Made by a program: the position numbers and the translations under genes
Notes under the pieces: model-generated
Database searches by the model: none
Seen by the model: the letters and a program-made list of their open reading frames with translations, nothing else
Told to the model about the DNA's origin: nothing
Assembly (NCBI GenBank): GCA_016928995.1
Contig: JAFGJS010000069.1
Coordinates: 1-36,318 of the forward strand
DNA length: 36,318 nucleotides
Direction of reading: 5' to 3'
From: Candidatus Sumerlaeota bacterium
GTDB taxonomy: Bacteria; Sumerlaeota; Sumerlaeia; JAFGJS01
Shown here: piece after piece, positions 1 through 36,125 of the stretch
How positions within the stretch are numbered: the stretch's first letter is position 1
How the letters are laid out: every line of letters begins with the position of its first letter

Positions 1-3000
1 CGCCAGGAACATGCCCCAGAAATCGCCGTAGTACTGATCGGGGGCCTCGTTGGCGCCGTCCACCACGCGGAAGTGCATCCAGTGCGTGAAGGGCGCGGGA
101 ACGCCATACAGGTTGAACATTTTATTGCCCATCGCCTCGGCCAGGCCGAAATCGCTATACGGTATCGGCGCGACAGAAGTGTTCCACCACCAGCCCTGGA
201 GGTTGCTGAACATCTTGCCAATCAACAGTTTGCGCCACTTTGTCGGATACTTTTTGCCGTAAATATCACGGGCTTGAAATTCATTGCCGCGGTTGAAGAC
301 GATTTTCCATGAACGTTTTCCATCCAGCAGGTAGCGCGCATTGGTGCCACGCAGGCGATAGCAGATATTATCATAGACGACATCGTCATAGACAAACGTG
401 CCGAACCAATTTTCCTTTCGGCGCGCCGCGATGTATGTCAGACCGGTATTGTTCGAGTCCAACTCATATTGGCTGTCCCAAGCGTTGCACTCTTCGATAT
501 CCTCGTTGCGGGAGATGAGGTGATACACCGGCAGGGAGTTCATCACTTCCTGGGAATACGTATGCGAGCCGCCAAACTCGACGGATGAATCCACGGTGTA
601 GGCCGGCACGCCATCATAGACGTAGTAAGCGCAGTTCAGGCTTGGATCCAAGGGATAGGGCGCTGTGACGCTGACGCCGACTCCGTTCGTGACGGTAATG
701 CGATAACGCACCAAAGTACGGTTGGTGGATTGAACGGGAAGAATCGCCGTGTACTTGCCGTTAAATGGGGTCACATCGCCGTTCGTGCCGTCGTCATACA
801 TCGTGACCGTGGTCCAGTTCGCCGGATTGACGTAATCCGGATTCACCTCGTTCGGCGTATCCGGATAATACTGCAAGGTGTCGTGATCCAACGGCAGATA
901 AGCCGGGATGTAGCTTCCCGGACTGACCACCTGGTAGCTCAGCGTCACGGAGACGATGCCGTCGGGATCGTCAATGTCCGCGGTGATTTTACATGTCTCG
1001 GTCGTCGCGGGCTGATTGGGACTGTGATTGATATCAAGTATGCCCGGCACATGATACCCGTTGAATTCACCGGGAGTCGGCTCGCTCAGGTACCAGGAGG
1101 GCGAGGTTTCAAACGTCGCGGCGGATAGTTCGGGCTGGATGAAAAAGTCGTAATCCGTCGCGCTGCTGTTCAATCCATGAATGGCCAGCACGTTCAGACC
1201 GCTCTGCAAAAGACCGACGTATTCGCTGACCACGATGGTTTCCGTGGTCAGATCTTCCAATGACATGGCGGAGACGGACGTCGTGGCCGTAGAGTCGTAA
1301 GCCACGCTGACTGGCGCGTTGCGCGAGGCGATCTCCGTCCCATTCAAATACGCCACAAAGCCGTCATCATAGATCATCTTGAGTCGCATGATGGTGTAAA
1401 GCAGCGATGGATCGCCGTCGATGGTGAAGGGGATGCGCAGGTAAGCTCCGGAGTTTACGCCATACATTTCCGTGGAGACATCCGTTGTGTATATCGTTTC
1501 CGCCTCTTCAGGCGCCACGTAGCCGAATTCATCGCGCTCGTCGATATAGTTCGCCTTCACCTGGGCCGGAGTCAGCGCGCCGCCATGCACGCGGATACGG
1601 CCGATGCTCAGTTCGGCGCTTTGGGCATAGGTGATGGAGACTCCATTGGTGTCGGTCTGGCAACCCAGCATAATGGGACGATTGTTGCGAGTATCCAGCG
1701 CCATGCCCATGGAATTATCCAGCTCGCCATCGACATAAATGCTGCTGACTGCGCCGTCATAGACATAAGTCAGATGATGCCAGGTTCCCATTTCGGGCAG
1801 GCCGTTCCAGGGCATGTCGCCCGCGCCCCAATTGGCGACGGCTCCCCATGAACCGTGCGATCCATACCCGAACACCATGTGTCGAAGATTAGTGCCGAGA
1901 TAGGCCCAGGAAACCATCGTTTCTTGATCCTTGGCTGCTGGATTCCAGGCCCAGACTTCAATCGTCCGGTCGCTGGCGTCTTCAATGTCAGTGATCGAGT
2001 TGGGTCCCTGATAGCCGGATATTCCATCGAAGGTCACAGCGGGCATGCCGTCAACGGTCTCCTTGACCACATCGTTGCCGACTTCGGCGAAAGTGCCGCC
2101 CAATGTGCCGCTGTTGGCCCAGCTCGATGAGCCGGCTGTGGCGTCGGCGGCGTCCAGGACCACCAGCAGATTGCCAGCTTGTTGAAATCCCGTCACCGGC
2201 ACGCCGGTGAATTCGTTCTTTTCGCGCTCGTAATTCAACAGAACCTGATCAGCGGTTAATTCTTCGCTATGGATGCGCACACGGGCCAGCGATGCGCTCA
2301 ATCCAATGCCGTAATTCGCGCTGGCGGAAAGGCCGGTGTCAGTCGTGGACATACCCAGCATCACTGGTATCGCCTCGCTGACATCACGCAAGGAGACGAC
2401 CATCTGGCGGATGTTGTCCTGTTTGCCGTCCACATAAATTCTCATGTATCCGCCAAGACCGCCTTCATTGGTTAACACCAGATGATGCCATTGCTTGCTC
2501 GGCGGAATGACATCGCATCCCAGATCATTGCTCCAGGCGGTGAAAACGCCCCAGGATCCATGATAACCATAGGAAAACATACCGCTGCCGTTTTGGTCGC
2601 AATGCCAGCAGGAGACCATCACTTCATATTCGCTGAAACTAGGATTATAGACCCAGGCTTCCATCGACCAGCTTTCCGTGCCGCTGATCGACTCTGGGAC
2701 CAAGGCGTCCAGGCTCATCGCATCGTCGCCGTCAAAGCTCACTGCCACGGCGCCGTCTACGGTCTCCACTGTGGGATCGCCCGTGCCGATGCTGGCGAAC
2801 TGCGTGCCCAGCGTGCCATTGTTCGTCCATGTCGAGAGGCTGCCCGCGGATAATCCAGAAGCGTCCAGATCGACGAGAAGGTCTCCGGCGACTTGCAGCG
2901 TGGGAGTCGTGAAATAACCGACAGCCGTCTGGCCGGAAAACCAATTGGGAGCTGAGGTGGAGAAGGCATCCGAGGTCCATGTCGTTCCGAGCGAACCATC

Positions 3001-3513
3001 GGTGGGAATATGGATATCGACATGAGCGCCAAGGGGAACCAGCGTATCGATCCCGCCGAATGCGCGACCGTAAGTCATATCCATCGGCGTTTCGGGATAT
3101 GCATCGAATTCGTCTTCAATAGTCACGCCGTCCGGACGGACCAGCGCCAGATATTCGCCTTCTTCGCTCAGCTTGAAATTCGTGTGCAGTTCTCCCGCCG
3201 GATCAGTCCGGTCCTTGCCGGAGGCGAAGATGACCACCATTTCGCCCGATGACAGGCTCACCGCGGGAATGGTCCATTTGGTGAGATTATCGTCCGCATC
3301 CGTCAAATACCAGCCCGACAAATTGACCGTGCCGGTCGTAACGTTCATCAGCTCGATCCAATCCGGATCTTGATTGTCTTCATCGTCCAGAAATTCGTTG
3401 TACGGGCTGATTTCTGAAATCATTACGCTCTGTGCCGCTGTCAATTGAGGCGCCAGGATTCCTGCCAGAATCCATAACAAACCCCCCACATAAAAAAATC
3501 GTCTTCCCATCAT
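1..3513 (-). CDS. Secreted lamin-tail/LamG/CotH multidomain protein (3' end outside window)
   Basis: The frame is open from the ATG at 3513 to base 1 (1171 codons, no stop), so the C-terminus is missing. Two ATGs are adjacent (3513, 3510), preceded by an AAGGGG ribosome site. Residues 1-28 form a signal peptide ending LTAAQ. Residues about 30-130 match a lamin-tail domain (ISEISPYNEF, DWIELMN, GWYL). Two LamG-like concanavalin folds follow (about 206-428 and 443-648). Both open with the same LDA, GTLG, ETVDG and FDG pattern, so they look like an internal duplication with a period near 237 residues. Next come a galactose-binding-like segment (about 670-790, YLNGTEIASRNAP) and an Ig-like region (about 800-960). 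From about 970 a CotH kinase-like domain begins (YRLRGTNARY, GKRSWKIVF, YYGDFWGMFLA). CotH-family proteins are atypical protein kinases. The catalytic residues lie beyond the edge, so activity cannot be judged. A secreted or surface role is likely; the target is unknown. Confidence 0.85.
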   Translation of the reverse strand, partial: MMGRRFFYVGGLLWILAGILAPQLTAAQSVMISEISPYNEFLDDEDNQDPDWIELMNVTTGTVNLSGWYLTDADDNLTKWTIPAVSLSSGEMVVIFASGKDRTDPAGELHTNFKLSEEGEYLALVRPDGVTIEDEFDAYPETPMDMTYGRAFGGIDTLVPLGAHVDIHIPTDGSLGTTWTSDAFSTSAPNWFSGQTAVGYFTTPTLQVAGDLLVDLDASGLSAGSLSTWTNNGTLGTQFASIGTGDPTVETVDGAVAVSFDGDDAMSLDALVPESISGTESWSMEAWVYNPSFSEYEVMVSCWHCDQNGSGMFSYGYHGSWGVFTAWSNDLGCDVIPPSKQWHHLVLTNEGGLGGYMRIYVDGKQDNIRQMVVSLRDVSEAIPVMLGMSTTDTGLSASANYGIGLSASLARVRIHSEELTADQVLLNYEREKNEFTGVPVTGFQQAGNLLVVLDAADATAGSSSWANSGTLGGTFAEVGNDVVKETVDGMPAVTFDGISGYQGPNSITDIEDASDRTIEVWAWNPAAKDQETMVSWAYLGTNLRHMVFGYGSHGSWGAVANWGAGDMPWNGLPEMGTWHHLTYVYDGAVSSIYVDGELDNSMGMALDTRNNRPIMLGCQTDTNGVSITYAQSAELSIGRIRVHGGALTPAQVKANYIDERDEFGYVAPEEAETIYTTDVSTEMYGVNSGAYLRIPFTIDGDPSLLYTIMRLKMIYDDGFVAYLNGTEIASRNAPVSVAYDSTATTSVSAMSLEDLTTETIVVSEYVGLLQSGLNVLAIHGLNSSATDYDFFIQPELSAATFETSPSWYLSEPTPGEFNGYHVPGILDINHSPNQPATTETCKITADIDDPDGIVSVTLSYQVVSPGSYIPAYLPLDHDTLQYYPDTPNEVNPDYVNPANWTTVTMYDDGTNGDVTPFNGKYTAILPVQSTNRTLVRYRITVTNGVGVSVTAPYPLDPSLNCAYYVYDGVPAYTVDSSVEFGGSHTYSQEVMNSLPVYHLISRNEDIEECNAWDSQYELDSNNTGLTYIAARRKENWFGTFVYDDVVYDNICYRLRGTNARYLLDGKRSWKIVFNRGNEFQARDIYGKKYPTKWRKLLIGKMFSNLQGWWWNTSVAPIPYSDFGLAEAMGNKMFNLYGVPAPFTHWMHFRVVDGANEAPDQYYGDFWGMFLA

Positions 3514-3530
3514 GTAATCCCCTTTGTTGG

Positions 3531-3536
3531 ATTATA
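3531..3536 (-). promoter_or_regulatory. Candidate -10 box for the CotH/LamG gene
   Basis: A perfect TATAAT on the minus strand lies 17 bases before the ATG at 3513, which would give a leader of only about 10-13 nt that still contains the AAGGGG ribosome site. No convincing -35 hexamer is present at 16-18 bp. The rest of the 265-bp AT-rich spacer (3514-3778) shows no gene or RNA that I recognise. Confidence 0.3.
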
Positions 3537-3778
3537 ATGCACTTTCCCTCGATCGATTTTCCAATCAACAAGCTTTTTCCGTGGAATGGCTGTCATCTAT
3601 ATGACGAAATCCGATCCGATTTGGTTTAAAAGCATACAAGGCTAGTTCAGTTTAAATAGTATGGCATTTTCTTCCACGTGTAAAGCTTAACTAATGAATA
3701 TTTTATGTTTTTCATCAAATCTGAATGGGGCGCGCGAATGAAATATCCACTGAAACACATCATGGAACACCACGTAAC

Positions 3779-21212: not shown

Positions 21213-24200
21213 ATGAAAATGAAGCATCGAATCACGAATCGGCTGGCGCTCCTGATTCTGACGCTGGCGACGATCCCCTGGGGCTCTGTCTCTGCACAAA
21301 ACGCGATTCTGTTCTCGGACACCTTCGACAATGAAGAGGAAGGAAGCCGTCCGCAGAGCTGGAGCGTGGTTGAAGCGGACGTTCCCGCTTCACGCTATTG
21401 GTACATCAAGGACAAGCAGTACTACACCGGCGAGGGCGACAACATCGGCGGCGACCGGTTAAGCTTTTCCGTCATTAAGGATGTCATCGGCAAAAACTGG
21501 ACGGACTACGAAATCCGCGTGAATTTCTGGATGCCGGACAACAGCGGCCAGCTGCTGGTTGTCGGGCGCTGGCAGGATCGCAGCAATCATTACCGGCTGT
21601 TTCTGCGCAGCAGCGGCTCCGGGCGGCAACTCGGCATTCAACGGATGAAGAACAACGATCTGGAATCGCTGGGGCTGGCGATTGACGGGACTAACGGCGT
21701 GTCGATTCCCAAATTCGAAAGCGCGCAATCGAAAGCGGAAAGTCATGAACTCGTTTTACGCTTCGAAGGTTCGACGCTGACGGCCAAACTCGACGGCCGG
21801 ATGTATTTGACGGCGAATGACGACGCCTTCCATATGGGCCAGGCCGGACTGGGCATTTGGTTCAACGAAGTCTATTTTGACAATGTGCAGGTCAGTTCGC
21901 TGGGCGAGGGCGGCGCAGCGGGGAAATACACCGTTTATCGCATCATCGTGCTGCCCAACGCCACATTCGATGACGCCACTCAATTCAAACAGTTGCTCTC
22001 CAATCAGGGGATCATCGACGTTGAAATGGTCTCCGACGAAGAGGGAAAATTCAATGTCGTGGTCGGCACTTGCTCCACGATGGAAGAAGCTGTGCGGCGG
22101 CGAGCCGTGCTGGAAAGCAGCGGCGTGCTGGTCCATGCGATCAAATCGGTTGAATACGAACGCAAGGGAGTGGAACAGACGCTGAAAATACAAGTGGATC
22201 AAGTTCCCAGCCGCGACGAAGCGCAACGCGTGAAGCGTTCGCTGGAAGCGGACGGCTTCCGACCGGTTTACATCGTCGATCAAAAAGCGCCGCCATATTT
22301 GATCTGCGTCGGCGAGTTCCGCGAGGCTGCGCGCAACGAAGCGGAAGACATGCGGCAAAAGCTCATCCGCTCGGGATACTCGCAAACCCGCATCGTCCGG
22401 TCAGAATTGCACAACATGGACATAGTGAATGATAAAGCCGTGCAGGGCGAGCCGGAAATCGACTCGGATGCGCTTCGCAAACTGATCAATGATAACAAGG
22501 ATGTCTGGGAGGAACTCACCAGAGACCAGCAGAAACAAATGCGCGACATCCTGGAAAGAGAAGTTGATCAGAAGATCGAAAAGAAATTTATCGAAAAAGA
22601 CAAAGAATACCAGAGTTTGATCAAACAGCTGGATGAGCGTCAGAGAAAGGTCTTCGAAGAACTCCGAGACCAGATTCGACAGAGCAAGGAACAGTCCGTT
22701 GAACAACAGCGCCACATCACCGAGATGGTCAATGAGATCAACGATTTCATCACGGCGGGCCGCTGGGATGAGGCAAGCGCTTTATTCGAGCAGATGAAAA
22801 CCGATGCGCCGAATGACGGCCGCATTCCCGAACTGGAGCGTAAAATCAGCTGGCGCCAGGCTGAAGATCCGATGGTGGTGCAGGCCGGTCTGGACAAGGA
22901 GCGCGAAAGGCAAATCGCTTCTCAACTGGCCAATTTGATTACGATGGCTCAACTGTCGGCGCAGGATAAAGATTATCCGGAAGCCATCAGAAACATGAGC
23001 CAATACATCGGGATGACCACGGATCCCGTGAAGAAAAAAGAAGGCCAACAGCTCAAAAAACACTATGAAGAACTGCAGGAACAGCAAGAACGCATCGAGC
23101 GAGAGATAGGCGCGGGCGACCAGATTAAAATCGAGCAGACATTCAAAATCTTGATGGTTGTCGTAGGAATCGTCGGCGCGCTTCTGGTTCTGGTGATCCT
23201 GCTGATGGTGCTGAGCAGCATCAAGCGCCGCCGTGAACGCAATGAGCTGCGCGCCACGCTGCAAAGCCTGTCGATGAAGCCGATGGTGGAGCTGCAGGGC
23301 GAAGCCATGGGCGGCGCCAAAGCGCCAGGAAAGACTCTGAGCGACGGCTCGGCGCCTGCGGTCGCCCGCCTCGAATCGAGCCAGTCCGACGAGGATTACA
23401 GCCAATACGAGATGGAGGAAGAAGAGGACACGTACAGCGGCATGGAAGAGGCCGAACTGGACGCCTCCGATCTTGAACGGACGCAGTTCGACATGGCAAA
23501 CGCAGCCGGCGACGAGTCACAAGACCTGGAGCAGGCTGACGACCAAGACCTGTACGCTGAGTCCGAGGAAGAAGAATTACCGGTCGGCGCCGAAGCCTCC
23601 ACGGATCAGTCCGGTTCTGGAGATGATGGGGACATCATGCTCGATATCGAAGAGCTGGAAGATGAGGAACTCCAGATCTCCACTGGCAAACAACCCACGG
23701 AATCGGTGACTGCCTCCGCCGAGGCGCTGCCGATCGGCTTGGAACTCGAAGGAGTGAACACCGAGGAAAACATCACTGTGGATCCCAAGGCCGCGTTGGA
23801 AAGCGACGTGGAGCAAACGGCGCTTCTGCCGGAAGACGATATGCCGGTGCTCGACGACAGCGGCCCGATGAAACCGCCCGTGCACACCGCGCCGCCCGTT
23901 GCAGCGCAGTCCGGCTTGATTTTCGCGCAGGACTTCCGCGAGGAGCTCGTGGGCAACGTGCCGCGCGGCTGGCAAGGCGAGTTTGATTTCGCGTCGCTGC
24001 AAGTGGCGGATGAAAGCCCGCCAAACGGCAGCAGCCGCTACATGCTGTTTGAAAAACCGCGAGGCGACGGACGGGCGTATTGCTACACGACATTCGACGA
24101 TGTGAAAGGCCGGGTGCGGGTTGAATTCGATCTGCGCTGCAACGACAAAAACAAATACCTGCTCGGTTTTTACATTGAAAAGGATCAGGATTTCAAAAAC

Positions 24201-24479
24201 TCCATTCACACCGTGATCCATCGCGCCGCAAGCCAGACATCGCCGATGCTGCGCATTCATGGCGTTCCAGTGCCGTATGAGATGGGCAAGTGGGTGAATG
24301 TGCGTTATGACATCAACTTGGGCAATGGAACGTTGAACGGATACGTAAACGGTCAAATGGTGGCGTCCAGCGTGCGTCTGGACACCAACCCGGGCAGCCT
24401 GAACACGCTGGCGATCCGCGACAACAATCCGACAACGGGCGTATTGTTGATCGGCAACATCCGCATCTCCCGCTTTTAA
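21213..24479 (+). CDS. Single-pass membrane protein: LamG-like, 2x SPOR-like, coiled coil, TM, acidic linker, LamG-like
   Basis: 1088 residues. The ATG at 21213 has an AGGA site 7 bases upstream. A signal peptide ends near SVSAQ (about 29). Residues 31-230 form a LamG/DUF1080-like beta sandwich (ILFSDTFDNEEEGSRP to VYFDNVQVSSLG). Residues 238-315 and 323-398 read as SPOR-like modules, each ending in a V-x-V-G pattern (NVVVGTCSTMEEA; YLICVGEFREAARNEAE). SPOR domains bind glycan strands lacking stem peptides. A charged coiled-coil region follows (about 410-643). One transmembrane helix (about 646-670) is followed by KRRRER, placing the C-terminus in the cytoplasm. Residues about 722-876 are very acidic, with DIEELEDEEL at 811-820 and two ERTQF/EQTALL-type threonine sites (757, 869). 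Residues 901-1088 form a second LamG-like domain. The giant TPR gene follows after a terminator-like hairpin. Domains are assigned by eye. Confidence 0.8.
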   Translation: MKMKHRITNRLALLILTLATIPWGSVSAQNAILFSDTFDNEEEGSRPQSWSVVEADVPASRYWYIKDKQYYTGEGDNIGGDRLSFSVIKDVIGKNWTDYEIRVNFWMPDNSGQLLVVGRWQDRSNHYRLFLRSSGSGRQLGIQRMKNNDLESLGLAIDGTNGVSIPKFESAQSKAESHELVLRFEGSTLTAKLDGRMYLTANDDAFHMGQAGLGIWFNEVYFDNVQVSSLGEGGAAGKYTVYRIIVLPNATFDDATQFKQLLSNQGIIDVEMVSDEEGKFNVVVGTCSTMEEAVRRRAVLESSGVLVHAIKSVEYERKGVEQTLKIQVDQVPSRDEAQRVKRSLEADGFRPVYIVDQKAPPYLICVGEFREAARNEAEDMRQKLIRSGYSQTRIVRSELHNMDIVNDKAVQGEPEIDSDALRKLINDNKDVWEELTRDQQKQMRDILEREVDQKIEKKFIEKDKEYQSLIKQLDERQRKVFEELRDQIRQSKEQSVEQQRHITEMVNEINDFITAGRWDEASALFEQMKTDAPNDGRIPELERKISWRQAEDPMVVQAGLDKERERQIASQLANLITMAQLSAQDKDYPEAIRNMSQYIGMTTDPVKKKEGQQLKKHYEELQEQQERIEREIGAGDQIKIEQTFKILMVVVGIVGALLVLVILLMVLSSIKRRRERNELRATLQSLSMKPMVELQGEAMGGAKAPGKTLSDGSAPAVARLESSQSDEDYSQYEMEEEEDTYSGMEEAELDASDLERTQFDMANAAGDESQDLEQADDQDLYAESEEEELPVGAEASTDQSGSGDDGDIMLDIEELEDEELQISTGKQPTESVTASAEALPIGLELEGVNTEENITVDPKAALESDVEQTALLPEDDMPVLDDSGPMKPPVHTAPPVAAQSGLIFAQDFREELVGNVPRGWQGEFDFASLQVADESPPNGSSRYMLFEKPRGDGRAYCYTTFDDVKGRVRVEFDLRCNDKNKYLLGFYIEKDQDFKNSIHTVIHRAASQTSPMLRIHGVPVPYEMGKWVNVRYDINLGNGTLNGYVNGQMVASSVRLDTNPGSLNTLAIRDNNPTTGVLLIGNIRISRF

Positions 24480-24662: not shown

Positions 24663-27600
24663 ATGACCTCCAAAACTCAAAATCTGTTTTCCGCCATTCT
24701 ACGCGGCCTGAACGGCGATTTCCTATACAGCCGGCTGGATTCCCTGCTGCCCGGCGCGCAACGTTATCCGGTTTACGTCAAGAGCCACTGCCCCTATCAT
24801 GAAGACGGACGCTTTCGTTCCTTTCTGGTCGATCTCAATCGCCGCGTGGCGTGGTGCACGAACCGGCGCTGCGAGGCGCGTCATGAAATCGACCTGGTCT
24901 CCCTCATCGCCAAACTGACCGGCAAGCACCCCATCCAGGTGCTGCTTCAACTCGTGGCCGAAAGCGCCATGCAGTTGGAAAGCAGCTACCGCGAAGACCT
25001 TGAGGAACTCGTGATCGAGGAGGTGCAGGCGCTGGCCTCCATCGGCGATGAAGAGACGGCCCGCATGCTGATCGACATGTGCACAAATCTCTCCGCGGAC
25101 AGCCTGAGCCTGGAATTGCAATCCAATCTGCTCTTTATGCATCAGGACCTGGAGAGCAGCGTGGACAACCTGTTCGCGCTGGCGGAACGGTGCCTGGAGC
25201 GCGACGACATCCTGCTGATCTATCAAATCATGGAGCAACTGGAGTTGTTGGCGTCGGACGACGAACGTCTGCTCGTGCTGAAGGCGCGGATCGCCGAAAC
25301 ACGCGGCGAACGCCGGGCCGCCGCCGACTTCTACCAGGCATACATCGAGCGGCTCGAACAATCGGACAGCACGGACCTGCAAAACGGACGCCAGGCGCGC
25401 ATGCTGGAAAAAATCCTGATGCTCAATCCCAGTTCCATCGAGGCGCGCCGGCGCTACGCGCAATGGCTCGACGGGCAGGGCATGGATGAAGAGGCGCGCA
25501 ATCACTGGAACGTGCTGCTGAAAGTGCTGCATGCCGAACATAAAATGGAAGAGGCGCTGGAACTGTCCCGCAGCATCGTGCAAAAGCGGCCCGGCGATCT
25601 TCAGGCCAAATTGCATCACGCCCGTTTCTGCCAGGAAACCGGACGCATGGATGAGGCCGTGGAGACCTTTGAAAACGTGATGCAGGATTACATCGCCGCG
25701 GAAGAATGGGACGAGGCGGAGCATTACTGCCGGCAACTGATGGACATCCAGCCGGAACGGCAGGATTTGCCGTTCCAGTTGATCCAAATCCTGAATAATG
25801 GCGGACGTCCGGAACGCGCGTATCATCAGACGGAAAAAATCCTGCCGCGCATGGAGCAAAAGGGCGACCGCGAGGGTCAGCTGAATCTGCTGCGTCAGAT
25901 GATGCAATGGAAGCCGCAGAACACGGCGTCGCGCGAGAAACTGGCGCGGCTGCTGTCGCGCGAGGGAAATTCGGAAGAATTGCACACCGTCCTTTGCGAT
26001 TTGGCGCGGCTGTATTTCGGACGCAAACTCAGCGAGGAAGGGGCCAGCCGTCTGCGCAAGGCGACGTCCCTCGCCCAGGGCGATTTGATCCGGCTGCAGG
26101 AGATCGCCGAAATTTATCAGGAGCAGGGGCTAAGCAGCGGCGCATGCCAAATCATGGAACAAATGGGGCGCGCCGTGGTGAGTGATAATCCGGAACACGC
26201 CCTGGCGCTCTCCAAACAGGGATTGGAACTGGAGCCGGACAGCATGAGCCTGATGGCTCTGCAGATCGAGGCATACCGCGCGTTGAACCAAGAGGACAAG
26301 ATCCTCGACGTGCTGGAACGCATGGGCGGTCCGGAAGCCACAAAAGCAGGCAAACGCGGAGCCTTGAGCCTGGAGCGCCTGCGCGGACTGGTGGATGCAT
26401 ATCCGCAGACGCTGGCCTTCCGCCTGCTGCTCGCGGGCGCGCTGGCCGATCAGGGACGCTTCGACGATGCGCTGGACGAAATCCGTCTGCTGGTGAAACG
26501 CGCGAGCAGCGAATCCGAATACAACCAAACGGCGCAGCTGCTGGCGAAAATTCAGGGGCAGCAGGGGCCGCGCATTGAAACGCTCGATTTGCAGACGCAA
26601 ATCTACGAGCTCCTGGGCGATGAAGATCGTTTGTTCACGGCGCTCAACAGTTTGGCCGGACTTTGCGCGCGGATGAAGCAAGGCCAGCGGGCATCGGCGA
26701 TCTACGAACGCCTGAGCGCGATGCGTCCGGATGACGCGACGCTGCTGCAGGAATACGCGGAATTCGCCCGCACTGAGATGAAGCCGGCCGAAGCGGCGCC
26801 CCTATGGCAAAGGCTGCATGAACTCCTGCGCGGCCAAGGCGAGACGGAACGCGCCGCCGACGCCTTGCGGCAAGCCATCCGCGGCCTGCCCGAACCTTAC
26901 GCCCTGCGCAAACAGTTGGCCGATTTCCTGGCCGAAAGTTCCGGTTGGGAAGCCGCGGCGGAGGAATATCGCCGGCTGCTGAACGACATGCGCGGCGTCA
27001 AGCCCGAAGATCCGCTGGTGCGGCAGTGCCTGGACAAGCTTTACGAGCACAACGAAGAGGATCCCGTGCTGCTGCGTGAAATGGCCGAAGAAGCCGAAGC
27101 GCAACGGGACGTCATCCGCTCTGTGGATCTTTATCAGAAAGCGGCTGAACTGCACTATCTGATCGACAACCTGGACGATGCGCGGGAGTGCTACGAGCGC
27201 GCGCTGAAGCTCCGTCCGCATGATCTGGCGCTGATGGCGCCATTGGCGGATGTGCATGAGCAGCAAGGCGCCAAGGATCTGGCCATTGAAATCCATGAGC
27301 GGATGCTGTCGATCTACACGGACCAGCTACAGGCGGAAAAAGTGCTGGAAGCGCAGGCAAAGATCTTGCGCCTGACGCCGCAACGCGAAGACTTGGCGCA
27401 GCAGCGCATCTCACTGCTGCGCAAACTGAACCGCAACGATCAAGCGCAGGAATGCTACGCGAATCTCATCGAGCACTACCGCAAGCAGGCGCAGTGGGAC
27501 GAGGCGATTCGCCTCACGCGTCAATTGCTGGATGACTATCCGGAGCGGCGCGACGCGCGCGAGCAGTTGATCGAATTGCTGACTCAAACCGGCGACACAG

Positions 27601-30600
27601 CGGAAGCGATCGAGGAATACGCGCAAATGGCGGAATTCCTGCTGGCGCGCAAAGAACGGGAAGCGGCGCTGGAGACCATGTCGCAATGGCGGAAACTGGC
27701 GCCGGATGACACTTCCCTGCTGGAGCGCATCGCCAGCCTGCATGTGAAGCTCGGCCGCGTGGATGAAGGCATGCAGCATTATCGCACGCTGCTGGATGAT
27801 TGCCTCAAAATCAACAACCTGGAAGGCGCCGTGAAATACGGGCGTACGCTGATCGAGCTCAATCCGGACAACTGGGAACTGCGGCATGATCTGGCGAAAT
27901 GGCTGCATGGAGCGGGCAAACTGCAAGACGCGTCCGACGTGATGCTGGAAGTCGTGCAACGGCGCTTCAGAGACGGGCAGATCAAAGAAGCGCAGGAAGC
28001 CGTCAAGCCCCTGCTCAGCTGGCTGGACTCGCTGGATTCGCGCCGGTTGAAACTCGCCATGCTGCTGGACAGCTCCGAACTTTCCAGCGAGGCCGAACCG
28101 ATCTACGTCTCCTGGGCTCAGGCCGCGCTTAACGCGAAGCAATACGCCCAGACCGTAGAGTGCTGCGATCAGGGAATCGCCAGCGACGCCGGGCGCAAGG
28201 CGCTGTATGAATTGAAGGCGGAGGCGCTCTCGCAGCTCGGCGATCCGGAAAAGGCCGCGCGGGAATGGAGCCGCCTGGCGCGCCTGCATCACGAAGACAA
28301 ATCGGCTCAGTCGGCCGTCAAAGCGTTTGAACGAGCGATTCAGTTGGAGCCGCAAGCGCTGGATTTGCGCGAGGATTATTGCCGCTACTTGATGAACACC
28401 GGCGTGCTGGGTCAGACGCAAGCGCCGTTGCGCGAGTTGATCAACTTGTGCGCCAAAGCCAAGGACACGGAGCGCGAGCTGACCTGGCGCGAACAATTAT
28501 CCAAAGTGGACGCCCTCGATTACGATAATCGCTTCGTTCTGTCTGAGCTGCTGATCAAAGCCGGGGACGGCGGCAGCGCGGAACGTCAATTGCGTTTGCT
28601 GCTGGACGATGCGATGGCATCGGAGAAAAAGGATGAAGGCTTCCGGACGGCCGAACGCGCGTTGAACATGCTGCGGCAGCTGCTGCCCAATGATGAAGGG
28701 CTGCTGCGTAATGAAATCTCGCTGGCGCAGTCGCGCAAGGACGATGAGCGCGTCGGCGCCCTGCGTCTTGAATTGGCCGATCTGCTGGAGCGCCATAACC
28801 GTTCGGATGAAGCGGCGGAAATTTACCGCGAACTTCTGCGCGAGACACCGGAGGATGACGCGCTCTTTGAAAAAGTGGCGGCCATCCTGAAACGGCAAGG
28901 ACCGAACACGCGGCTCTACGTTCATTGGCTGGAAGACCGCTGCGAATTTGAGCGCAAGCGCAACGGGCATCCGCGCATCCGCGAGCTGCGTCTGCGGATC
29001 GTTGACGCTGAACCGGACAATCTGGAAAATCGCTGGAATCTCGCTTCCGCCTGCATGAAATTGAAACAGCCCGAGGAGGCGATCGAGCATCTCCGCCATG
29101 CGTTAAAAATCGAATCGATGCAGGGCAACACGCGCGCGGCGGAAAAACTGGCCAGCGAAATCCTCAAGATCGATCCGGAACTCGTGGACGTCCGCGAGCA
29201 ATACGCGCAGTTCCTGACCGACCTTAAACAGCAAACCCAGGCCCTGGAAGAAATGCGGCGGCTCGTGGACCATTTCCAGCAATCCGGCGGCGTCGCGAAC
29301 GAGTTGCGCTGGCGCGGCTCGCTCATGGCGATGTCGCCGGCGGACATGAAAAACCGCTTCCGCATGGCCGACTTGTTGAAACAGGAGAGCCGGCTGGATG
29401 AAGCGGCTGACGTGCTGCGTTCCATCATCCGCGAATCCATGGGCCGTTTGACCGAGACCGGGACGCAGGAAGCGGCGCGCAACGCGAGCGCGATGCTCCG
29501 CGAGTGGATGCCGGATGACGAGGACGCGCGCCGCGACGAAATCGAACTCTACACCGCGTTGGGCGAAGGCGAACGCGCGCGTGAGCTGATGGTGGAACTC
29601 GGCGCATGGCTGGAGCGGAACGAACGGTATTCCGAAGCCGTCGACTTGTACCGCAAGCTATTGCGGCGCCAGCCCGGTCAGGACGAGCTCTTCGAGCGCG
29701 TGGCCGCGCTGCTGCAAAAGCAGGGCATGACCGCGGAATACAAGGAATGGATCAACGACCGGGCGGAGTATCAAAGTCAACAGGCCAACTGGAAAGCCGT
29801 CCGCGCCTTGCGCGAACGTCTGCTGGAGGCCGCTCCAGACGACCTGGGCAACCGGGAAAAACTGGCCGACGCGCTGCTTGAATTCAGCGAAACCGCCGCC
29901 GCGGTGAGCCACTTTGAATATTGCATGACGCAATACGCGGAAGAGGATCAACCCGCGGAAGCGGCGGACATGGCACGCCGGATTCTCAGGGCCGAGGGTG
30001 GCGGGCGGATCGACGTGCTGGAGCGCCTCTATCGTTTTCTGATGCAGGACGGACAGGATAAAGAGGCGCTGCGCCCATCGCGCGAACTGGCCGCGCATTA
30101 TCAGCGTTCGGGTGAAATCGAACCGGAAATCCGCTGGCGGCGCGAAGTGCTTCAACTCGAAGCGGAAAATTTCGAGAACCGTTTCCGTCTGGCCGAGGCG
30201 CTGCACGAAACTGGCTCTGAAGACGAGGCCTGGACCCTCGTGGTGGAGGCGCTGGACAAGGCGATGGCCTCGCTCTCCTCCCCGAATTACGCCAAACACG
30301 CCGCATGGGCCGTGGAGACGCTGCGCAAATGGCAGCCGGATAATGAGGAAATCCTGCGCCGCGAGATCGAACTCTGTCAGCAGACCGGCAAGGAGGCGCG
30401 CGTGCTGGATTTGCAAAGCACGCTGGCCCGTCAACTCGAAAACAGCGGCAGGGAAAACGAGGCGCTGGAAATCTACCGGGAGCTTTCCCGCAATCATCCC
30501 GAGCGCCCCGAGCTCTTCGAAAGCGCCGCCAGCATTCTGCAAGCCCTGGGCGACACTTCCGCGTTCGTCGAATGGCTGGAGGAACGCTGCCGCGTCGAAC

Positions 30601-33600
30601 TCAGGCGCACCGTCGGCTCCGGACGCCTGCGCGGACTGCGCGAGCGCATCGCCGAGGCGGAGCCGGACAACCTGAACAACCGGCAGATGCTGGCCGACGC
30701 CTGTTTGAAACTCGACGATGTCGAGACGGCCATTGAACACCTCTCCTATTGCGCTGACAGCCACTCCGCGCAAGGCCGGATCGAAGAAGCGGCGGCGATT
30801 TATGAACGCATTCTGTCCATTGAGCCGTCATTGCATGAGCAGCGGGCAAAATGGACGAATCTGCTGCTGCAACTCGGCCGCACAACCGAGGCGCTGGAGC
30901 AGATCAAGACGCTCGCGGAAGCCAGCCGTGAACGCAACGACGCCGAGGAAGAACTGCGCTGGCGCAAACAGTGGCATGTGGCGGACAGTCAGGACGTGGA
31001 AAACCGCTTCCGCCTGGCCGCGCTGCAACGCGACGCCGGCAAAGAAGACGCGGCCCATGAATTGCTGCTGGGAATCCTCACTGCGGCGATGGAAGCGCTC
31101 GACAGCAAACCGAACAAGAACAGCAACCTCTTCAAGGACAACTCCTCGCACGCAGGGCAGGCGCTGGAATTGCTGCGCACATGGCGCCCGGACGACGAGG
31201 AACTGCTCCATGCGCAAATCCGCTACTATGAAAACGTGGGCAAGGATGCGCGCGCACGCTTGACCAAACGCACCCTGGCGGGCCAGATGGAGCATCAAGA
31301 ACGGCTTCAGGACGCGCTCGAACTTTACTCCGATCTGCTGCGCTCCGAGCCGGACGACGACGAACTCTTCGACCGGACGGCCGACATCCATCGCCGGATG
31401 GACGACATCGATCAGTACTGCTCGATGCTGACAGAACGGGCTACGGCGGCGGCGAAAGCGGAGAATTGGGGCCGCGTGCGCGTATTGCGTCAGCACATCA
31501 TGGACGTGCGCCAGGAGGACACGGAAAACATCGAAGGCCTTGCGGAAGCGTGTCTGAAGTTCGACAAGAAAACCGAAGCGATCCGCTACTTCACGCGGCT
31601 GTTCGAACTCGCCGCGCAAAAAGGCGCGACGGATGCAGCCGTGGGACACGCCCGGCGCATTCTGGATGTGCAGCCGGATCATATGGCCACGCGTGAAAAC
31701 GCCGCGGCGCTGCTGGAAAAAGAGGACGATCTTGACCGCGCTTACCGCATCCTGGAGCCTGCCGGCCGCCGCATGTTCGAAGGCGGCCAGCGCGATGAGG
31801 CGCTGATTTTCCAGCGCACGATGATCGAACGTTTCCCGAACTTGACCCAGCCGCGCGAATTGCTCGTGGATTGGCTGACCGAACTCGGTCAAAGACGCGA
31901 AGCGCTCGACGAGCTGTTCGGCATCTTCGATCTTTACCTGAATTCCGGCGACACGCATTCCGAGGTGGTGCTGGAACTCGAGGAGCGCATGGCGCAATGC
32001 TGCGGAAACGATGTGACGCTGATGATCTCGCTTCCATCGCGCCTGCTGGAGCGCCAGCAACGCAATAAATGCGAGCAGATGTATTGCCGTCTGATCAATA
32101 GCGTGCGTGAGAGCAAAGACCTGGAAGCCCTGACGACGCTCTGCCGCCGCGCTTCTGAGCAAGTCTCGGATTCAATCCGTGTGCATGAACAAATCCTCGA
32201 GGGCATGGAGCAGCTCGGGACCAATGAAGCCGTCGTCGACACTGCGCTGAAACTTGGCCGCTTGTACCAACAGGGCGAGATGCCGGACAAGGCCAGTGAA
32301 ACGTTGCGCAAGGCCGTGCGGCTGGCGCCCAAGAATCCCGCTGCGCACGTCGTCTGGATCGAATTCCTGGAAAAAGAAGGCCGCAAGGAAGATCTGGTCC
32401 GGCCGCTGCTGGCGCTGTGCGATTTGTACGAGGAAAAGGGCCAGTTGGATGACGCGCAGCAATGCCTGGACCGCTTGCTGGCCGTGCAGCCGCAAAACGA
32501 AAAGGCCGTCCAGCGCCGCGCCGATCTTTTAATCCGCCTCGACCGCAAGTCCGAAGGCATCAAGTCGCTCATGGATCAGGCCGCGCGCCACGAGGAGGAG
32601 CTGCGCTGGGATGACGCCGTGCGCTATCTGGAGCAGGCTTTCGAGTACGCGCCGGAGGACATCGGCATCCTGCGCCGCATCGTGCGTGTGACCCGCAATC
32701 AGAAAAGCGACGAACTCAATCTCAAATACAAAAAACAACTCGCCGACATTTACGAATCCCTTGGCAACACGGATCTTGCCATACCGCTGTATGAGGAGAT
32801 GATCGACCAGCGTCCGGAAGAGTACGATATATATGAGAAAGCCGCGGATCTGGCGATGCAGGTGGGCGACGGCGAGCGTGTGAGCAAGGTGCTGCTCGAT
32901 TTATCCAAGGCGCATGAGAAGCAGAATGCGCTGGATCTAGCCATCGCGGCGCGCTTGCGGCTGTATGCCTTCGATCCGGAACAGCGTGAAAATCTGGAGG
33001 AAATCGCGCGGTTCTATGAGCGGCAAGGCGACCAGGCCAACGCGATGAAGTATCTGCGCGAAGCGATGGGGCTGCTGCGATCCCGCCATGATTACGCAGA
33101 AGCCGTCACGGTCGGGCGTAAAATCCTCAACCTCGACTCCAGCCAAGTCGCGGTGCGCCGCGATATCGCCCAGTTGCTGGAGAGCCAGGGCGACCGCTCC
33201 GCCGCCGCCAATGAATGGGTGACGCTGGCGGAATCGACGCAAATACGCAGCAGGAAAGACAAAGACAAGGAATCGGCCAATCAGGCGATTCACGCCTTGC
33301 GCGAGGCGGTGCGCATCGATCCCGAACGCTTCGCGGAGCATCAGCGGCTGGCCGAGCTGCTGTCCAACCAAAAACTCGAAGACGAAGCGGTGGAATGCTA
33401 TTCGCAGCTGATTGAAAAATACGAACAGCGCGAGATGCTCACCGAAGCCATCGCGGTCTGCCTTCAAGCGCTGGCGCTGCGTCCTGAAGACGTTAAGATG
33501 CACGAGCGCCTGTTCCGTTTTTACCGCAACACCGGTGAAACGCGGCTGCAAGTGGCCGAAGCTTTCTGGCTTGGACGCAATGCGCTGCAACATGAAGACC

Positions 33601-36125
33601 TGATCCGGGCCGAGGAGTATTGGATTCAAGCCCTTGAGGCGGATCCGAAAAATATGGAACTGCTGGAGAGTCTCGCGGATTTGTATAATCGCCAAAACCG
33701 GCAGATGGAGGCCGCGGAAACCTATCAGCAGTTGATCGATCTGGCGGAGACCGACGGCGATCCGATGCGCGTGCTGATGTACCTCGAGGAGGCCGTGGCC
33801 TGCCAGCCGCACAACCTCATGCTGCGGCGCCGCATGGTGCGAGCCTTGGTGCGCGCCGAGCAATTCGAGCCTGCGCGCGCGAAATATCTCGAGATGATGC
33901 GCGAGCTGCTGGAACTTGACCAGGATGAGGCGGTCAGCGATCTGCTGCAGAGCGCCCAGACGCTGTTCCCCAACGATCAGCGCCTGAACTTCGAACTCGG
34001 CGACCTCTTTGTCGAATTCAATCAATCCGACACCGCCGCATCGCTCTACCTGGAGGACATCGAGGAACTCACGCTGGCCGGCCGCTGGGATGAGATCCTC
34101 GAAATCTGCGAGCGCCTGTTGCCATTGCGCGTTCGCCCCATTGCGACATATGAATTACTCACGCATGCTCTGGAAATGAAAAACGAAACGGGCCGTCTGC
34201 GGGAGATTTATCCCTCGATGGGCGAGGAATACGAGCGCGCCGGAAAATATGAGATGGCCGTCGAGGTTTACCGCAAACTGCTGGTCCTGGAGCCCGATTC
34301 GACCGACCTGCGCCAGACTCTTGTTTCCCTGCTCTCGCTCTCCGGCGATCACGAGGGCGAAGCGGAAATCTTGCTGGAACTGATTGAAGTCCGCGCGAAA
34401 AACAACGAGTTAGAGGCCATGGCCGGCTCATTGCGACGTTATCTGAATCTGCATCCGGACGATGTCCAGCGGCGCGAGCAGTACATCGAAACCTGGCTGC
34501 AACTCGGCTCCGAGGAAGACCTGCTGCCCGATTACCGTCTGCTGATCGAGCATTACCGCGACCGGAACAATCCATCAAAAGCCGCCGAGTACCTGGAGCG
34601 TTGCCTGCGGCTTCAACCGGACGACATCGAGATGCGCGAGCAGCAGATCGAATGGCTGGAGGCGGGCGGCGAAACGGAAAAGGCGCTGGAGCGCTCGCTC
34701 GAACTCGCCCGCGTGCATCGGGAAAAGGGCTATCCACGCAAAGCCGCCGATTTGCTGCAGCAACGGCAAAAAGCAGCCCCGCGCGACACGCGCATCCACC
34801 TGATGCTGAGCGAGATTTTCACCGAGATGAACTTCAAGGGGCGCGCGCTGGAAACGCTCAAACAAGCCGCGTCAATCCTGAGCGAGACAAATGAGAAAGA
34901 CGAGCTCATCGCAGTCTACCAGCAGATCCTTGAAATCGATTCGCAAAACGCCGAGGTCTATCAAAACCTGGCCAAACTATACTCCGAACTCGGCCGGGAG
35001 TCTGAATCGATCGAAATCTCCATGGCCCTGGCCGAACTCTATCAGGGCCGCAATCTCCCCGATCTCGCCGAAGGCGAGTATCGCGCCATCCTTGAGCGCC
35101 AGCCGGAGAATATCCTCGTGCTGCGTAAACTCATCGACCTGCACGGCCAGCTGGGGCTGCGCGAGGATCTGGAGCACGACTCCTTCCGCCTCGTTGAACT
35201 ATACATCACCCAAGGCTTGGTCGAAGAGGCCGTCGAGGTGCTGCGTCATGGTCTGAAAAACGACTCCGGCAACATCCCCATGCGCCAACAGCTGATCGAC
35301 CTCTATTCGCAGTTTGGCGACGAGCGGGAGCTCGTGGAGGATTACCTGGTGCTGGGCGCGCGACTGCTGGAAGTCGGAGAACGGCAGAAGGCCATCGACT
35401 CCTATCGCCGCATCCTCGCCGTCGAACCGGGAAATGCCCAGGCGCGACAGGCGCTGAAGCGGCTCACGGGCGAGGCGCTCGAGGATCAAAGCAAAAGCGC
35501 GACCAATACTCAAGAGCGGGAACGCAGAGCGGCGCAAGCGAGCAAGGTCGAACCCGAGCCGTTGCCCATTGACATTGATGAGCTCGATGATGAATTCGAA
35601 CTTCCCGAGTCGATGCAAGCGGAACAGCCCGCCGTTAAAAAACCGGAGCCTGTGGAAGAGCCTAAAAAACCGCGCAAAGCTCGCGACCGCAAAGCCGATA
35701 TCACCGATTACGGCGTCATCGCGCACCGCCCGAGTGAAAACGGCGGCGAAGAAGCCCTGAAGAAGCATTCGGCGGAATTGGAACAGGCGATTCAGAATTA
35801 TCAGCTGCTGCTGGAGCGCAATCCGGATAACGCCGAAGCGCGGGAGCGTCTGGGGGACTGCCAGCAGCAGGCGAACAACATCGCCGCCGCCATCGAGCAG
35901 TGGGACACCGCCAGCCAGCTTTATGAAAAAACACAGCAATACGGCAAAGTGATCAAACTTTGCGAAAAAATCGTGGCGCTGCGCCCGAGCCACGCCGGCG
36001 TGCGCAAACGCCTCAGCGAGGCGATCAACAAATCCGAAATGCACCGCGCGCTCGACAGCGCCATTGAGAACATTCACAGACGCCCCTTGACTCCCGACTC
36101 CGAGATCAAGCCCAAGCAGCGCTGA
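24663..36125 (+). CDS. Giant TPR protein with N-terminal CHC2/DnaG-type zinc finger
   Basis: 3820 residues in one uninterrupted frame. No signal peptide or membrane segment, so cytoplasmic. The ATG at 24663 has a weak GGTGGA site upstream. Residues about 35-100 resemble a bacterial primase zinc finger: Cys43-Pro-Tyr-His46, a SFLVD strand, Cys65 and Cys70, then EIDLVSLIAKLTGK, which parallels the D-x-I-x-F-V helix of DnaG. The second cysteine pair has four intervening residues instead of two. No TOPRIM or polymerase domain follows. From about 100 to 3605 the protein is almost entirely TPR-like helical hairpins (recurring A...Y..LL...P patterns). Residues 1275-2382 contain a higher-order repeat of 275 residues. 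A charged Pro/Glu/Lys linker (about 3610-3700) carries IDIDELDDEFELP (3636-3648), and two or three final TPRs end in a basic tail. Probable role: large interaction scaffold; partners unknown. The upstream SPOR/LamG protein is the best candidate. Confidence 0.85.
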   Translation: MTSKTQNLFSAILRGLNGDFLYSRLDSLLPGAQRYPVYVKSHCPYHEDGRFRSFLVDLNRRVAWCTNRRCEARHEIDLVSLIAKLTGKHPIQVLLQLVAESAMQLESSYREDLEELVIEEVQALASIGDEETARMLIDMCTNLSADSLSLELQSNLLFMHQDLESSVDNLFALAERCLERDDILLIYQIMEQLELLASDDERLLVLKARIAETRGERRAAADFYQAYIERLEQSDSTDLQNGRQARMLEKILMLNPSSIEARRRYAQWLDGQGMDEEARNHWNVLLKVLHAEHKMEEALELSRSIVQKRPGDLQAKLHHARFCQETGRMDEAVETFENVMQDYIAAEEWDEAEHYCRQLMDIQPERQDLPFQLIQILNNGGRPERAYHQTEKILPRMEQKGDREGQLNLLRQMMQWKPQNTASREKLARLLSREGNSEELHTVLCDLARLYFGRKLSEEGASRLRKATSLAQGDLIRLQEIAEIYQEQGLSSGACQIMEQMGRAVVSDNPEHALALSKQGLELEPDSMSLMALQIEAYRALNQEDKILDVLERMGGPEATKAGKRGALSLERLRGLVDAYPQTLAFRLLLAGALADQGRFDDALDEIRLLVKRASSESEYNQTAQLLAKIQGQQGPRIETLDLQTQIYELLGDEDRLFTALNSLAGLCARMKQGQRASAIYERLSAMRPDDATLLQEYAEFARTEMKPAEAAPLWQRLHELLRGQGETERAADALRQAIRGLPEPYALRKQLADFLAESSGWEAAAEEYRRLLNDMRGVKPEDPLVRQCLDKLYEHNEEDPVLLREMAEEAEAQRDVIRSVDLYQKAAELHYLIDNLDDARECYERALKLRPHDLALMAPLADVHEQQGAKDLAIEIHERMLSIYTDQLQAEKVLEAQAKILRLTPQREDLAQQRISLLRKLNRNDQAQECYANLIEHYRKQAQWDEAIRLTRQLLDDYPERRDAREQLIELLTQTGDTAEAIEEYAQMAEFLLARKEREAALETMSQWRKLAPDDTSLLERIASLHVKLGRVDEGMQHYRTLLDDCLKINNLEGAVKYGRTLIELNPDNWELRHDLAKWLHGAGKLQDASDVMLEVVQRRFRDGQIKEAQEAVKPLLSWLDSLDSRRLKLAMLLDSSELSSEAEPIYVSWAQAALNAKQYAQTVECCDQGIASDAGRKALYELKAEALSQLGDPEKAAREWSRLARLHHEDKSAQSAVKAFERAIQLEPQALDLREDYCRYLMNTGVLGQTQAPLRELINLCAKAKDTERELTWREQLSKVDALDYDNRFVLSELLIKAGDGGSAERQLRLLLDDAMASEKKDEGFRTAERALNMLRQLLPNDEGLLRNEISLAQSRKDDERVGALRLELADLLERHNRSDEAAEIYRELLRETPEDDALFEKVAAILKRQGPNTRLYVHWLEDRCEFERKRNGHPRIRELRLRIVDAEPDNLENRWNLASACMKLKQPEEAIEHLRHALKIESMQGNTRAAEKLASEILKIDPELVDVREQYAQFLTDLKQQTQALEEMRRLVDHFQQSGGVANELRWRGSLMAMSPADMKNRFRMADLLKQESRLDEAADVLRSIIRESMGRLTETGTQEAARNASAMLREWMPDDEDARRDEIELYTALGEGERARELMVELGAWLERNERYSEAVDLYRKLLRRQPGQDELFERVAALLQKQGMTAEYKEWINDRAEYQSQQANWKAVRALRERLLEAAPDDLGNREKLADALLEFSETAAAVSHFEYCMTQYAEEDQPAEAADMARRILRAEGGGRIDVLERLYRFLMQDGQDKEALRPSRELAAHYQRSGEIEPEIRWRREVLQLEAENFENRFRLAEALHETGSEDEAWTLVVEALDKAMASLSSPNYAKHAAWAVETLRKWQPDNEEILRREIELCQQTGKEARVLDLQSTLARQLENSGRENEALEIYRELSRNHPERPELFESAASILQALGDTSAFVEWLEERCRVELRRTVGSGRLRGLRERIAEAEPDNLNNRQMLADACLKLDDVETAIEHLSYCADSHSAQGRIEEAAAIYERILSIEPSLHEQRAKWTNLLLQLGRTTEALEQIKTLAEASRERNDAEEELRWRKQWHVADSQDVENRFRLAALQRDAGKEDAAHELLLGILTAAMEALDSKPNKNSNLFKDNSSHAGQALELLRTWRPDDEELLHAQIRYYENVGKDARARLTKRTLAGQMEHQERLQDALELYSDLLRSEPDDDELFDRTADIHRRMDDIDQYCSMLTERATAAAKAENWGRVRVLRQHIMDVRQEDTENIEGLAEACLKFDKKTEAIRYFTRLFELAAQKGATDAAVGHARRILDVQPDHMATRENAAALLEKEDDLDRAYRILEPAGRRMFEGGQRDEALIFQRTMIERFPNLTQPRELLVDWLTELGQRREALDELFGIFDLYLNSGDTHSEVVLELEERMAQCCGNDVTLMISLPSRLLERQQRNKCEQMYCRLINSVRESKDLEALTTLCRRASEQVSDSIRVHEQILEGMEQLGTNEAVVDTALKLGRLYQQGEMPDKASETLRKAVRLAPKNPAAHVVWIEFLEKEGRKEDLVRPLLALCDLYEEKGQLDDAQQCLDRLLAVQPQNEKAVQRRADLLIRLDRKSEGIKSLMDQAARHEEELRWDDAVRYLEQAFEYAPEDIGILRRIVRVTRNQKSDELNLKYKKQLADIYESLGNTDLAIPLYEEMIDQRPEEYDIYEKAADLAMQVGDGERVSKVLLDLSKAHEKQNALDLAIAARLRLYAFDPEQRENLEEIARFYERQGDQANAMKYLREAMGLLRSRHDYAEAVTVGRKILNLDSSQVAVRRDIAQLLESQGDRSAAANEWVTLAESTQIRSRKDKDKESANQAIHALREAVRIDPERFAEHQRLAELLSNQKLEDEAVECYSQLIEKYEQREMLTEAIAVCLQALALRPEDVKMHERLFRFYRNTGETRLQVAEAFWLGRNALQHEDLIRAEEYWIQALEADPKNMELLESLADLYNRQNRQMEAAETYQQLIDLAETDGDPMRVLMYLEEAVACQPHNLMLRRRMVRALVRAEQFEPARAKYLEMMRELLELDQDEAVSDLLQSAQTLFPNDQRLNFELGDLFVEFNQSDTAASLYLEDIEELTLAGRWDEILEICERLLPLRVRPIATYELLTHALEMKNETGRLREIYPSMGEEYERAGKYEMAVEVYRKLLVLEPDSTDLRQTLVSLLSLSGDHEGEAEILLELIEVRAKNNELEAMAGSLRRYLNLHPDDVQRREQYIETWLQLGSEEDLLPDYRLLIEHYRDRNNPSKAAEYLERCLRLQPDDIEMREQQIEWLEAGGETEKALERSLELARVHREKGYPRKAADLLQQRQKAAPRDTRIHLMLSEIFTEMNFKGRALETLKQAASILSETNEKDELIAVYQQILEIDSQNAEVYQNLAKLYSELGRESESIEISMALAELYQGRNLPDLAEGEYRAILERQPENILVLRKLIDLHGQLGLREDLEHDSFRLVELYITQGLVEEAVEVLRHGLKNDSGNIPMRQQLIDLYSQFGDERELVEDYLVLGARLLEVGERQKAIDSYRRILAVEPGNAQARQALKRLTGEALEDQSKSATNTQERERRAAQASKVEPEPLPIDIDELDDEFELPESMQAEQPAVKKPEPVEEPKKPRKARDRKADITDYGVIAHRPSENGGEEALKKHSAELEQAIQNYQLLLERNPDNAEARERLGDCQQQANNIAAAIEQWDTASQLYEKTQQYGKVIKLCEKIVALRPSHAGVRKRLSEAINKSEMHRALDSAIENIHRRPLTPDSEIKPKQR
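28485..31808 (+). repeat. Four tandem copies of a 275-residue TPR super-repeat inside the giant gene
   Basis: A landmark Trp in the ELRWR-type motif occurs at residues 1275, 1550, 1825 and 2100 (codons at 28485, 29310, 30135, 30960), a spacing of exactly 275 each time. Further landmarks recur in the same order: NRFRLA-like, LR-W-PDDEE-like, an ALEIYRELLR-like TPR, ELFE-AA-IL, EWLEDR, AEPDNL-NR, and ACLKL-AIEHL. The fourth copy carries an insertion of about 8-9 residues (around KPNKNSNLF), after which the register changes and the pattern fades. The copies are diverged at protein level. Confidence 0.85.

Follow-up and report, generated by a model that had tools for sequence, protein, structure and literature searches.

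Why does a bacterial protein carry the same long segment four times in a row, and does the length of that segment matter? The question is raised by a frame of 3820 aa on the plus strand (24663-36125) of the window, the whole stretch of DNA analysed here, which comprises 36,318 nucleotides of a Candidatus Sumerlaeota genome (a 4.5-Mb assembly in 161 contigs). The frame is open throughout and encodes a giant alpha-solenoid protein, in which a hydropathy scan finds no transmembrane segment. TPR-family matches dominate its Pfam search; several of these families exceed their cut-off by a wide margin (best E 7e-98), and curated models match the TPR consensus. A preliminary description had placed at 28485-31808 four copies of an exact 275-residue repeat, within an array whose base repeat it took to be about 34 residues. 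It read the constant length as a sign of constraint, possibly one superhelical turn or one repeated binding site.

Four blocks of 275 residues

The four-copy repeat is real. Landmark Trp residues stand at 1275, 1550, 1825, and 2100, giving a constant period of 275, 275, and 275, and the blocks around them are homologous. In ungapped self-comparison, lag 275 scores 601 over 688 residues at 26% identity (1186-1873 against 1461-2148), and lag 550 scores 516 over 386 residues at 35% identity (1211-1596); five whole-sequence shuffles, each over one seventh of the diagonals, scored 41-51 at best. Over residues 1186-2148, lags 550, 825, and 275 stand out most (z 9.0, 8.1, and 7.5); lag 54 reaches z 2.9, and lag 34 falls outside the top 15. 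The preferred 275-residue offset that a self-alignment had been expected to reveal is thus present.

With boundaries chosen as the best-scoring, self-comparison and a unit test place the copies on the plus strand at residues 1230-1504 (28350-29174), 1505-1779 (29175-29999), 1780-2054 (30000-30824), and 2055-2338 (30825-31676), each with its units in the order 2-3-4-5-1, numbered from residue 1176. The region first described begins on the Trp codon at 28485; the blocks themselves span 28350-31676. Pairwise identity among the four blocks ranges from 0.307 to 0.401. The best partner of every sub-unit (20/20) is the same position in another block, and none of 2000 within-block permutations equalled the observed difference; the mean unit score is 75.8 at the same position in another block (30 pairs) versus 10.9 elsewhere (160 pairs), with unit 3 of copy 4 scored at full length. 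Duplication of a multi-hairpin segment, as originally proposed, is strongly supported by these comparisons.

The spacing is exact for the Trp landmarks but not for every position. For residues 1713-1778 and 1989-2054 the matching lag is 276 rather than 275, so single-residue indels within the blocks cancel. Copy 4 does hold the insertion noted earlier, 9 residues in the loop of unit 3 (about 2152-2160; 31116-31142, plus strand, from the block alignment); across it the period is 284, and a local lag of 276 is also present. The insertion had been taken to mark the end of the array, but the array continues for about 1,250 residues further. Units of 54 residues are detected to about residue 3586 and then once at 3721-3773; those on the C-terminal side of the four blocks (about 2556-3586; 32328-35420, plus strand) do not form 275-residue blocks.

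A 54-residue unit of three predicted helices

The base repeat is 54 residues, in the giant protein and in its relatives, and not the 34 first supposed. In the parts of the protein beyond the blocks, lag 54 leads (residues 2495-3544, score 444), and strong matches to a unit profile are spaced at about 54 residues or multiples of it in the giant protein and 18 related frames. The giant protein thus lacks the 34-residue, two-helix period of the canonical TPR, with 54-residue spacing and, in a structural model, three helices per unit. With this base period, the 275-residue block is five units (54+58+54+55+54), or fifteen helices. An AF2 model of residues 1176-1779, built on an alignment of 38 sequences, has a mean pLDDT of 93.9 and a pTM of 0.71; it contains 33 helices in all, in a regular succession of about 13, 17, and 14 residues, and the 54-residue unit is accordingly predicted to be three helices of these lengths (13-17-14).

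How such a unit relates to the TPR is suggested by a three-unit profile aligned to solved TPR chains, which carry 14 extra residues. Profile positions 25-137 align to chain residues 226-352 (113 positions to 127), 1-141 to 676-830 (141 to 155), and 24-123 to 3-116 (100 to 114). The surplus fits a unit equal to two TPRs minus one helix. In our reading of the unit consensus, the middle helix would begin like a TPR B helix and end like an A helix. A comparison of even with odd unit separations, made to look for alternation between two faces, gives no clear effect: the means are 0.563 and 0.524, the even one including a peak at twelve units. The giant protein points to a relative of the TPR whose unit has 54 residues and three helices.

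Block length in the family

A block of 275 residues might have been fixed by selection, if each forms a single superhelical turn or a whole ligand site. The three Trp spacings of exactly 275 speak for this reading, as do 41 columns invariant in all four copies (W1275, nine Arg, and two Asn among them) and a separate duplication of a 279-residue block, 38% identical, in a relative (L045, 1595-6589). Several observations weigh against it. Two relatives, L043 (5673-14978) and L056 (9959-19189), repeat a block of 649 residues, or twelve units, and the family as a whole has an excess at twelve-unit separation (0.695 versus 0.49-0.59 for other separations). With relatives' blocks of 649 and 279 residues, the suggestion of one superhelical turn finds no support. 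The twelve-unit block of L043 and L056 also shows signs of a third copy.

Indels, moreover, are rare elsewhere in the family: six relatives of family f5 measure 2598-2604 residues after script trimming, and, judged from these sequences, the rarity of indels is a property of the family and not of the block. The exact spacing also conceals the compensating indels inside the blocks. A special constraint on length is then not needed, and we regard selection for a fixed length as unlikely. One repeated binding site per block is possible given the 41 invariant columns with their nine Arg; the four blocks are acidic, with a net charge of -8 to -18, which we count against our preferred explanation.

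Origin of the array

The explanation that we prefer, and consider likely, is that a five-unit segment of a TPR-like solenoid was expanded fourfold in a Sumerlaeota lineage. Searched with a profile built from the four blocks, the copies themselves score 410-424 bits; among 1,111 frames at least 150 aa long in the fetched loci, the window's own gene (L077) scores 419 bits and the best of the other open frames 75, so the block array is absent from the relatives examined. A global alignment with 12 relatives, in which the register of the repeats is ambiguous, is nearly full in 12/12 at residues 1-660 and 2311-3080. Nothing aligns to residues 1211-1320 in 11/12 relatives or to 1321-1430 in 12/12, and coverage of 1431-2310 is partial, with 30-100% aligned in several bins between 1651 and 2310. 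Elsewhere, L041 and L042 lack most of residues 661-880; these two, like the six f5 proteins, also lack part of 881-1210. The last 190 residues are absent from 7/12, including L060, which ends at a contig end.

Since no relative has the block, and since relatives align with much of the rest and are mostly gap here, the four-block array is probably a lineage-specific tandem expansion. Identity points the same way: the blocks are 31-40% identical to each other, whereas identity between the giant protein and its relatives is 13-32% within the bins that align, which favours expansion within its own lineage. The family to which the giant protein belongs (f1) has one genome in the searched set, and close relatives therefore cannot date the event. 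In this expansion, the five-unit segment would have been copied in-frame, by duplication or unequal crossing-over, to four tandem copies, which would then have diverged to their present identity. The outcome would be a longer solenoid in which one set of surface residues is multiplied fourfold.

An ancestral array, lost or blurred in the other families, could account for the partial alignment of relatives to the block region, and the single f1 genome in the set leaves room for it; the higher identity among copies than to relatives, together with the 75-bit ceiling of the block profile in those relatives, makes it very unlikely. An assembly artefact, which a genome in 161 contigs might suggest, can be practically discounted, as the copies differ at 60-69% of residues, too much for mis-assembly of one copy, and the reading frame stays open throughout.

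The N-terminal zinc ribbon and its family

At its N-terminus (residues about 17-105; 24711-24977, plus strand), the giant protein carries a zinc ribbon of the DnaG type (CHC2) with ligands C43, H46, C65, and C70. These four are invariant in 22/22 aligned members and follow the CHC2-like pattern C-x2-H ... C-x4-C. Pfam PF01807 matches 14/20 members (E up to 1, the lowest being 2.1e-6) and does not match the ribbon of the giant protein taken alone. Searched against PDB sequences, the zinc-ribbon profile matches only DNA primase, 2au3 (2.6e-5) and 1d0q (0.025). For a model of the N-terminus (pLDDT 90.9), Foldseek ranks 1d0q, a primase zinc domain, first (E 7.6e-4, TMt 0.66) and gives no other match at E up to 0.001; the ribbon thus shares the primase zinc fold. 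With VIA-align, TPR chains fill the best 50 matches listed for the N-terminal model, and the primase domain is not among them. Searched at full length, the giant protein gives 20 Pfam matches (E up to 0.001), none of them the catalytic TOPRIM domain of DNA primase.

The ribbon is found in 36/39 genomes of the class and 37/40 of the phylum sample, in one to five copies where present. The window's genome has three such proteins: the giant, a 596-residue protein, and a 1379-residue protein ending in a DnaA-type AAA+ domain (L078:1887-6026, AAA+ E 1.7e-59). Paralogues of this last kind, in which a DnaA-type AAA+ domain lies C-terminal to the same combination of zinc ribbon and TPR-like units, also occur at L044:6193-10356 and L083:1961-8395. 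One 131-aa open frame (L082, 1143-1538) has little beyond the zinc ribbon, and similar short open frames of 136-183 aa are seen in several genomes.

The family of the giant protein occurs across Candidatus Sumerlaeota, a little-studied phylum. An alignment of relatives' N-termini found 16 named loci, of which 14 are labelled Candidatus Sumerlaeota, Sumerlaeaceae, Sumerlaeia, or candidate division BRC1; one of the other two is labelled only "bacterium" and one Bacteroidetes. A record labelled Bacteroidetes (L066) has a gene whose block-scan pattern is nearly that of L040 and L055, which makes mis-binning likely. A contig scan with the giant protein's own N-terminus alone recovered no relative; scanning with a closer subset of relatives' N-termini recovered them.

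The upstream membrane protein

Directly upstream of the giant gene, at 21213-24479 on the plus strand, lies a gene for a partner protein of 1088 aa. Its start resembles a sugar-hydrolase/lectin family weakly (2.9e-4, below cut-off). It has a SPOR domain in two stretches (1.1e-8, 35.7 bits against a cut-off of 21) and one transmembrane segment near residue 646, and its C-terminal domain (about 901-1088) has only a weak Laminin_G match (0.0032). If the start is exported, the C-terminal domain probably faces the cytoplasm. This domain is 44-50% identical to its relatives, versus 11-27%, in 60-residue bins, for the rest of the protein. Neither that remainder of the partner nor the giant protein comes near it in conservation.

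The C-terminal domain is single-copy in 37/39 genomes of the class and in 20/20 of the better genomes. Positions compared by eye show a same-strand zinc-ribbon gene immediately after the partner in 22/37 genomes; in 15/37 the two do not adjoin, some of these cases lying near contig ends, and we count this against our preferred explanation.

A possible function

What might the giant protein do? Since it has no transmembrane segment, and since export of the partner's start should leave the partner's conserved domain on the cytoplasmic side, the protein would sit in the cytoplasm as a long scaffold. The solenoid might dock on the upstream SPOR/transmembrane protein, at its conserved and probably cytoplasmic end, and the likeness to DnaG hints that the zinc ribbon might contact nucleic acid or a replication partner. 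Taken together, a cytoplasmic scaffold docked on the conserved end of its partner, with the ribbon holding nucleic acid or a replication partner, is a tentative picture, possible but rather doubtful.

A bolder version describes a tether specific to the phylum Sumerlaeota that would link the cell envelope to the chromosome, in which a SPOR-bearing transmembrane protein docks the solenoid and the ribbon holds DNA or the replication machinery. The highly conserved cytoplasmic domain of the partner would dock the giant, with the primase-like zinc ribbon at the other end of the solenoid. An odd number of helices per unit would let each helix alternate between faces, so that curvature cancels and a straight rod results, which five-unit blocks would lengthen stepwise; control of replication would fall, within this system, to the paralogues fused to DnaA. 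We consider this version improbable. The giant protein and its partner offer a testable protein pair across a barely studied phylum, which joins a primase-type zinc domain and a giant scaffold to a cell-wall-linked membrane protein.

Comparison with known systems

In the openly accessible literature, we found no paper that brings together the CHC2 zinc domain and the tetratricopeptide, or a three-helix repeat, tetratricopeptide, and solenoid; no paper title there pointed to a protein joining a DnaA domain, tetratricopeptide, zinc ribbon, and primase, and papers there with Sumerlaeota in the title yielded no mention of the tetratricopeptide.

The DnaG primase zinc-binding domain (CHC2, PF01807) has the same ligand pattern and fold as the N-terminus of the giant protein; the giant differs in having no primase catalytic family among its Pfam matches. 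The top Foldseek matches of the block model are TPR arrays (for example OGT, IFT139/TTC21B, Ctr9, and SKI3), and VIA-align relates it to gamma-SNAP (2ifu; Z 15.4, rmsd 3.2, 213 aligned) and Sec17 (1qqe; Z 14.4, rmsd 3.6, 197 aligned). Among the 50 Foldseek matches listed, no solved chain covers the model in full (TM-score by query 0.26 at best). The TPR has 34 residues and two helices, whereas the unit described here has 54 and three.

The duplication itself is real but of a familiar kind, a known mode of growth in repeat proteins. In other repeat proteins, several units are described as duplicated together, often mid-array, and nebulin is given as the case of a seven-domain unit (PMC1553488). 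The giant protein resembles nebulin in that its repeats were duplicated several units at once; it differs in that its block is five units of a bacterial three-helix solenoid, and in that relatives in its family use other block sizes. Very long bacterial solenoids, then, grow by copying several units at once, and the size of the block varies by lineage within one family.
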